A stretch of 64,000 bases of DNA from Icerya purchasi (lineage: Eukaryota; Arthropoda; Insecta; Hemiptera; Monophlebidae). The stretch is taken from positions 146,076,274 through 146,140,273 of the forward strand of contig CM077115.1 of NCBI GenBank assembly GCA_039619475.1, read 5' to 3'. Both the position numbers and the translations under genes were made by a program. Each line of letters opens with the position of its first letter. The first letter of the stretch is position 1. The notes under the pieces were generated by a model, which did no database searches, had not been told where the DNA came from, and worked only from the letters and a program-made list of their open reading frames with translations. This document shows, one piece after another, positions 16,119-17,549 of this stretch.

Positions 16119-16358
16119 CTGGAATTCCGTTAAATCGACGTTCAAAGCCCCGTCAAATCGTAAGGAAGCCGTAATGGAGGAGACGATTTGTCCGATTAGG
16201 CGGTTTAAATTCGTGTAGGTAGGTCGTTCGATGTCCAGATTTCTGCGACAAATATCGTATATAGCTTCGTTGTCGACCATAAAGGCACAATCGCTGTGCT
16301 CAAGAGTTGTGTGAGTGGTCAGTATAGAATTGTATGGTTCTACAACAGCAGTGGACAC
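16119..16358 (-). CDS. alphaTub: alpha-tubulin alternative exon 4, copy III, canonical (residues 177-256)
   Basis: The third 240-nt version lies 439 bp downstream of copy II. Its acceptor is TGTTCAAG at 16359 and its donor is GTATTG at 16118, both in phase 0. The translation is the standard animal alpha-tubulin sequence over residues 177-256, including [20 protein letters not shown] and the H7 segment [20 protein letters not shown]. All nucleotide-contact residues and Glu254 are present. It is probably the default housekeeping version. Double inclusion with another copy would stay in frame but add 80 residues to the core domain and should not fold as tubulin, so a rule for choosing one copy is expected. 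Confidence 0.95.
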
Positions 16359-16550
16359 CTTGAACACAGTACGCGTTACGATTTTGTGTATACGCAGTCT
16401 CGATTTTAGAACTCAATTACACATATTAACGAAACAAAGCCGTTGCATATTTATTTCTTAACTTACATCAGCCGCGAAATTTGCCGATGTTGAGTAAGAC
16501 ATGTTTTTTTAAGGGTGTTTTGTTATATTTTTATTTTTCTTTTTTTCTTT

Positions 16551-16572
16551 TTTTTTTTTTTTTTTTTTTTTT
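16551..16572. repeat. poly(T) run between exon 4 copies II and III
   Basis: About 22 T (A on the coding strand) with shorter T-rich flanks from 16528 lies between alternative exons II and III. It is simple sequence; a splicing role is not shown. Confidence 0.7.
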
Positions 16573-16797
16573 GCGCCAACACGTAGACAAACATTTGTGT
16601 AAATTTGGACAACAAAAAAACAAAAGAACGAAACAAAACTAAACAACAAAAACGATAAAATAACCAAAAAGAAAAGAAAAAAAAAACAAGTACACACGGA
16701 AGAAATGGAAACAATGATGCAAACGTGTGTCAGTGTGTACTATCGCTACGGGGAAAACTTAAAACCCCCGCGTCGTCTCAACGGAGAGAAATCAAAC

Positions 16798-17037
16798 CTG
16801 AAATTCTGTCAGATCTACATTTAAAGATCCCTCGAAACGCAACGACGCCGTGATCGAAGAAAGCACTTGGCTGACGAGACGATTCAGATTCGTGTAGGTC
16901 GGTCGTTCGATGTCCAGGTTTCGGCGACATATTTCGTAGATGGCTTCATTGTCAACTACGAAAGAACACTGGCAGTGATCCAGCGTATTATGAGTCGTCA
17001 AGATGGAGTTGTACGGTTCGACAACAGCGGTGGAAAC
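16798..17037 (-). CDS. alphaTub: alpha-tubulin alternative exon 4, copy II, divergent (residues 177-256)
   Basis: The second 240-nt version lies 272 bp downstream of copy I. Its acceptor is GCGTAAG at 17038 and its donor is GTTTGA at 16797, both in phase 0. It is open throughout and keeps Glu183, Asn206, Tyr224, Asn228 and Glu254. It differs from the canonical alpha sequence at 13 of 80 positions: T193N, E196D, S198C, D199Q, A201S, M203V, D211E, I231V, G232S, I234V, V235L, D245E and A247S. The changes are conservative or sit in the H5-S6 loop and the middle of H7, as expected of a selected isotype rather than decay. It shares A201S, I234V and V235L with copy I, which suggests these two are closest relatives or have undergone conversion. 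A testis- or tissue-type variant is possible but not shown. Confidence 0.9.
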
Positions 17038-17309
17038 CTTACGCAAAAAAATTATCGCGATCATTCTCAAAAAGGTATTACTAAAATTTATACGTCTAGC
17101 GAATTATTACCAAAAAAAAAAAATTGATCTTATTGTTGTACTCGTATTAAACTTACATATAGGTTAATATTGTCACCAAATGCAGTTTTTTAAGCTTTTT
17201 ATGTTATAGTGTGCGTACCGTATTGCTGCTTTTTTTTTTTTTTTTTTTTAGATAAGCACCCATGTCATTTCCGATCACCAGCGCGCAGAAAAATTTCGCG
17301 GGAAAGTAC

Positions 17310-17549
17310 CTGAAATTCGGTTAAATCTACGTTCAGTGCCCCGTCGAAGCGTAACGAGGCCGTTATCGAAGATAGTACTTGTCCGATTATTCGATTCAAA
17401 TTCGTGTAGGTTGGTCTCTCGATGTCCAGATTCCGGCGGCATATGTCGTAGATAGCTTCGTTATCGACCATGAAAGAACAATCGCTGTGTTCTAACGTGG
17501 TGTGAGTTGTTAGAATTGAATTGTACGGTTCGACAACCGCCGTAGATAC
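17310..17549 (-). CDS. alphaTub: alpha-tubulin alternative exon 4, copy I (residues 177-256)
   Basis: This is the first of three tandem 240-nt versions of the same exon in transcription order. The acceptor is TTTTTAAG at 17550 and the donor is GTACTT at 17309, with both boundaries in phase 0. It encodes V177-Q256, which is the end of the T5 loop, helix H5, strand S6, H6, core helix H7 and the start of H8. It keeps Glu183, Asn206, Tyr224 and Asn228 (GTP contacts) and Glu254 (catalytic for the neighbouring beta-tubulin GTP). Against the canonical alpha sequence I count four conservative differences: A201S, L230I, I234V and V235L. Nothing marks it as a pseudo-exon. Use as one of three mutually exclusive exons is inferred from the arrangement. 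Confidence 0.92.

Follow-up and report, generated by a model that had tools for sequence, protein, structure and literature searches.

The question raised by this locus is whether one α-tubulin gene can yield several proteins by choosing among tandem versions of a single internal exon. Tubulin diversity usually resides in separate genes, which differ most in their C-terminal tails. The gene considered here belongs to the scale insect Icerya purchasi and lies on the minus strand of a 64-kb stretch of DNA (the window, C1:146076274-146140273, C1 being the contig that holds it), its last two exons, 6 and 7, falling beyond the window. Exon 4 is present three times, and the copies very probably form a cluster of three internal exons, spliced in a mutually exclusive way, in a gene that we take, by name and identity, to be αTub85E-like. 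The parts of the gene are as follows, with positions counted over the whole stretch or, where so marked, along C1, and a slash standing for the splice border.

22802..23024, minus strand: exon 2, residues 2-75 and the first base of codon 76 (from tblastn and splice borders)
20223..20524, minus strand: exon 3, the remainder of codon 76 to residue 176, donor CAA/GTATCG
17310..17549, minus strand: exon 4a, residues 177-256, four amino acids different from 4c
17038..17309, minus strand: intron 4a-4b, 272 nt, GT-AG, AG-exclusion zone of 26 nt
16798..17037, minus strand: exon 4b, residues 177-256, the divergent copy, 13 amino acids different from 4c and 11 from 4a
16359..16797, minus strand: intron 4b-4c, 439 nt, GT-AG, AG-exclusion zone of 38 nt
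16119..16358, minus strand: exon 4c, residues 177-256
7278..7468, minus strand: exon 5, residues 257-320, codon 320 split
C1:146074699-146074795, minus strand: exon 6, 97 nt, outside the window
C1:146071450-146071743, minus strand: exon 7, 294 nt including the stop, outside the window

In the transcript the copies follow one another in the order 4a, 4b, 4c. The junctions 2/3, 3/4, 4/5 and 5/6 are in phases 1, 0, 0 and 2, respectively. All three copies are open in frame, their acceptors (AAG/G) and donors (CAG/GT) are identical, and with any one of them exons 2-7 give a full α-tubulin of 449 amino acids, a length that counts the initiator Met of exon 1; exon 1 itself, which carries the ATG, was not located. 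The first-pass annotation of this DNA had described three 240-nt segments for residues 177-256, with AG/GT borders and phase 0 at both ends, and this description proves correct to the base, as do the two lengths that it gave for the introns between the copies. Its placement of the cluster between single-copy exons 3 and 5 is likewise borne out, since no duplicate of either exon was found in the window and 100 kb to either side of it, other than those of an upstream paralog. The longest repeat family in 15000-20600 consists of the three copies themselves, 252 nt long, that is, the exon with a few splice-site bases, and it ends at the splice sites.

Other repeats occur in the same stretch. An 83-nt interspersed repeat is found at 15041-15123, 19259-19341 and 37256-37338; its copies are 89-96 % alike, and both introns that border the cluster contain one. 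Within intron 4, 435 nt beyond exon 4c, two perfectly matching 67-nt arms form an inverted repeat around a 19-nt loop (15531-15683, fold of -91.7 kcal/mol). This inverted repeat has no second copy within the surrounding 264 kb; it could be a young foldback element and may have a role in splicing. Farther away, a long simple tandem array (55583-56514) has several open frames that read as a TLLYF-type repeat.

The differences between the copies are concentrated at third codon positions. Exons 4a and 4b differ at 55/240 bases and 11 amino acids (41 of the 55 at third positions, binomial P 4.9e-10), 4a and 4c at 48/240 bases and four amino acids (40/48, P 1.3e-12), and 4b and 4c at 62/240 bases and 13 amino acids (48/62, P 1.5e-12). 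Identity between copies ranges from 178 to 192 of 240 nt and from 67 to 76 of 80 residues. Values of dN lie between 0.03 and 0.09, and those of dS between 1.3 and 2.7 where computable, being otherwise saturated or without value. When exons were aligned with introns, 20/20 alignments scored below the best of 20 shuffles (for intron 4, over its first 4 kb). This result, together with a repeat that ends at the splice sites, indicates that the duplication is old. Exon 4c and the conserved α-tubulin of the genome (L004) encode the same protein and differ at 57/240 bases, about as many as separate 4c from 4a or 4b. Purifying selection has held each copy, and none has decayed. As judged from the sequence, the three exons are old and each has been separately kept as coding sequence. 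No relics of further exon-4 copies scored above shuffles in intron 3 of the gene, in the first 4 kb of intron 4 or between the copies.

The two introns between the copies do score above chance when aligned with each other (43 versus 29 for the best shuffle), owing to an A-rich block on the sense strand that lies 148-212 nt upstream of 4b (17186-17250) and 146-204 nt upstream of 4c (16505-16570); no comparable block lies upstream of 4a. Its score was reached by 0/200 dinucleotide shuffles, but once A/T runs were masked 270/500 shuffles did as well. The block may have been left behind when a duplication included the upstream intron, or may reflect low complexity alone.

On the reading that we favour, each mature mRNA would carry exactly one of 4a, 4b and 4c. 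Three isotypes would result, with a common scaffold and C-terminal tail and with different H5-H7/T7 cores, 4c giving an ordinary α-tubulin, 4a a close relative of it and 4b a divergent form. Reading 4a and 4b together stays in frame and meets no stop, since 240 = 3 x 80. The product would have 80 extra residues, a repeat of the buried H5-H7 segment, and should not fold as tubulin. Because double inclusion would break the fold and selection acts on all three copies, single inclusion is implied. Mutually exclusive splicing is probably the best explanation of the cluster, single-copy use being the only reading that would preserve the fold. The first-pass annotation had proposed alternative, one-at-a-time use, and this is strongly implied by the completion of a 449-residue protein with each copy, by purifying selection and by the lack of decay; the proposal is partly supported. 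No tandem-exon junction occurred in the 339 public proteins fetched, a weak test among the matches listed from a database whose clustering at 90 % hides isoforms.

How would one copy be chosen and the others excluded? The earlier annotation had argued that exclusion needs something other than steric block or frameshift decay, and this argument holds. Steric block is unlikely with introns of 272 and 439 nt and AG-exclusion zones that reach just 26 and 38 nt from the acceptor (the zones standing in for mapped branch points). Frameshift followed by decay does not fit exons of 240 nt whose double reading is free of stops. Nor does incompatibility of U12 and U2 splice sites fit, no [AG]TATCC donor being present among the introns scored. 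The donor of exon 3 is the weakest of the seven scored, with 5/9 consensus bases and a U1 duplex of -1.6 kcal/mol; the corresponding donor of the paralog has 7/9 consensus bases and a duplex of -7.2. The donors of the copies are ordinary and not clearly weaker than the constitutive ones (-6.4 to -7.2 versus -6.3 to -8.8, exon 3 at -1.6 set apart). The weak exon 3 donor is a lead, though not a proof, for regulated choice at this site. As none of steric block, U12/U2 mismatch and frameshift decay fits the anatomy, and no docking-selector pairing emerged, we propose that the three exons would compete for the weak exon 3 donor in a regulated manner, via trans-acting factors; this is the least certain step of the mechanism. 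Eight splicing-factor motifs were tried. TTTTT occurs 46 times against 7.7 in base shuffles, to which no weight is given in a region rich in T/A runs, and the others are at or below expectation or have single-digit counts (e.g., TGTGT, 4 versus 1.9).

The same cluster could owe its exclusion to competing RNA structures, in which a single docking site would pair with any one of three selectors. We regard this as possible but rather less likely than not to be the mechanism in use. An insect precedent is mentioned in the excerpted text of PMC5224494, and the introns are big enough for such elements. However, four scans, in which selectors upstream or downstream of the copies were each set against intron 3 and against 3 kb of the 8.65-kb intron 4, gave no pairing above shuffles: the best candidate was equalled or passed by 18, 10, 15 and 5 of 20 shuffled docking regions. 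With 24-nt windows, 3 kb of intron 4 per scan and a single species, these scans are a weak test.

A different objection to mutually exclusive splicing is that only one copy might be used, 4c being the likeliest as the canonical one, while splicing would seldom or never include the duplicates 4a and 4b. The proteins lend this view some colour. The protein of 4c is identical to that of L004 and, among the α-tubulin sequences fetched, is the one met most often: 75/356 segments are identical to 4c and none to 4a or 4b. It differs from 4a at residues 201, 230, 234 and 235, and from 4b at 193, 196, 198, 199, 201, 203, 211, 231, 232, 234, 235, 245 and 247; all three exons end in the same DLTEFQ. Among solved chains, a tubulin α-1C scores best. 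We take residues 177-256 to comprise H5-H7 and T7, so that the differing positions would presumably fall at the end of H5, in S6 and H6, in the core helix H7 and in the T7 loop. Several residues of 4b are rare among 136 distinct gap-free segments, which come from 313 of 338 fetched database proteins and are, as matches listed, not a fair sample: Q199 occurs in none, L235 and V203 in one each, N193 and C198 in two each. Others are common in the same set (S232 in 36, V234 in 29), and 0/136 segments equal 4a or 4b. Against disuse stands the fact that 4a and 4b have kept their frame, both splice sites and the residue identity given above in the face of high or saturated synonymous change, whereas unused exons would have decayed. 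We therefore consider exclusive use of one copy unlikely.

It is less likely still, to the point of being improbable, that the copies can be combined as cassettes, or that they belong to separate transcripts made from their own promoters or by trans-splicing. All junctions of the copies are in phase 0, which would keep combinations in frame, but combining them would repeat the buried core, and separate transcripts are hard to reconcile with exons 3 and 5 that are common to all copies and with the finding that no additional exon 2, 3, 5, 6 or 7 lies between them. Finally, an assembly artefact, which the first-pass annotation had kept as an alternative, or a recent tandem duplication can be rejected almost outright on the DNA divergence of 20-26 % (the copies are only 74-80 % identical), on introns with at most the A-rich block in common and, for the artefact, on an assembly made from PacBio long reads with a contig N50 of 12.81 Mb (PMC11183206).

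The exon cluster also has a history that can be partly read from its neighbourhood. The same strand carries another α-tubulin gene about 74 kb upstream (C1:146173596-146180144, 97323-103871 relative to the window), with the same intron positions and a single exon 4. In their constant parts the two genes are identical at 333/369 residues, and they group together at 90/91 (bootstrap not settled). Exon 4 of the paralog has D196, C198 and S232 as in 4b, and V234 and L235 as in both 4b and 4a. In five-taxon tests, protein and codon models favour a pairing of 4b with the paralog and nucleotide GTR+G one of 4b with 4a, several alternatives not being rejected; in eight-taxon trees, support for 4b plus paralog is 78 with protein and 68 with codons, and the nucleotide tree lacks this pairing. 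Two of the three models thus suggest that the exon cluster arose before the gene was duplicated and that the paralog kept only the 4b-type exon. Intron 3 of the paralog has no relic of other exon-4 copies above shuffles.

A search of the genome with 4b (1,103,370,081 bases, 41 contigs) returned at least 26 places, namely the three copies, the paralog and 22 others. Four of these 22 were read (L004, L006, L007, L008), and in all of them the reading continues beyond residue 256 with no intron. Among the at least 26 places, no other pair is separated by 9 kb or less, and the exon cluster appears to be the only one of its sort seen in the genome. Nine divergent α-tubulin-like places (57-77 % over exon 4) have long open frames, L006, L007 and L008 lacking the 256/257 intron. 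This divergent set merits attention given the aberrant sperm axonemes of scale insects.

As to the class of the gene, its constant exons group with α-tubulins of Popillia, Aromia, Timema tahoe and Lutzomyia, and the protein of exon 3 is identical at 101/101 residues to Aromia P0051. In the constant-exon tree, from which exon 4 was omitted for the two Icerya rows only, a group of seven among 21 rows, the copepod Eurytemora included, has a support of 93/93, with no fork at star level and the bootstrap not settled. The Drosophila αTub85E-type α-tubulin may be a close counterpart of the Icerya gene. We know of no alternative core exons in αTub85E-type genes.

The gene seems to offer a natural clean swap of residues 177-256, with all else constant. 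If so, it would permit a direct test of the effect of the core module on lattice stability and GTP turnover. The cluster also lets one ask whether alternative exons and duplicate genes take one another's place. All scale insects are described as having unusual sperm axonemes, arranged in aberrant spirals or concentric circles and not in ninefold symmetry (PMC4979663, in excerpt). A speculative extension, which we hold only tentatively and think doubtful as a whole, is that in this aberrant-axoneme lineage splicing exchanges the nucleotide-core module of one α-tubulin gene, so that different microtubule lattices would be built from isotypes with the same tail, and that the 4b module afterwards gave rise to a gene of its own, the upstream paralog. 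If true, the step from splice isoform to gene duplicate would have been caught within one locus.

How does the cluster compare with those already known? Among familiar clusters of mutually exclusive exons is that of 14-3-3ζ. Others include those of Dscam, muscle myosin heavy chain and dynein heavy chain (PMC3228551). By the sequence criteria of Pillmann et al. 2011, as given in the excerpted text of that paper (PMC3228551), the Icerya exons form a candidate mutually exclusive cluster: their lengths are equal (240, 240 and 240 nt), splice-site pattern and reading frame agree in all three (AAG/...CAG/GT, phase 0/0), they are homologous (67-76/80 residues, 178-192/240 nt), and they are neighbouring internal exons with flanking exons on both sides (2-3 upstream, 5-7 downstream). 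In a test on the fly X chromosome, only 6/1705 genes had constitutive or differentially included exons of such a kind, and of 65 internal exons that were predicted, existing annotation already listed 26 as mutually exclusive (PMC3228551). Since just 26/65 predictions were already annotated, sequence criteria alone are no proof of splicing.

Among the matches listed from the open-licence literature on tubulin and splicing, there was no report of such an α-tubulin cluster. The tubulin case in the available text of the WebScipio paper is a fungal β-tubulin (PMC3692071), and the word tubulin is absent from the main text, as excerpted, of the Icerya purchasi genome paper (PMC11183206). Like the clusters of Dscam, myosin and dynein, the Icerya cluster is a tandem row of homologous internal exons, equal in length and phase, set between single exons. 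It differs from them in its host, an α-tubulin under extreme sequence constraint, in that no docking site was found and in that its use of one copy per transcript is a prediction. Repression modes named in the excerpt of PMC5224494 are steric interference, secondary structure, NMD and trans-acting factors. Exons Ab and 3 of U2AF1 are, similarly to those of Icerya, duplicated homologous exons in a core gene, but there are two copies, in vertebrates, controlled via branch point and polypyrimidine tract, as against three copies in an insect (PMC5224494). Exon clusters of this sort are already known; what appears to be new is the host protein, α-tubulin.
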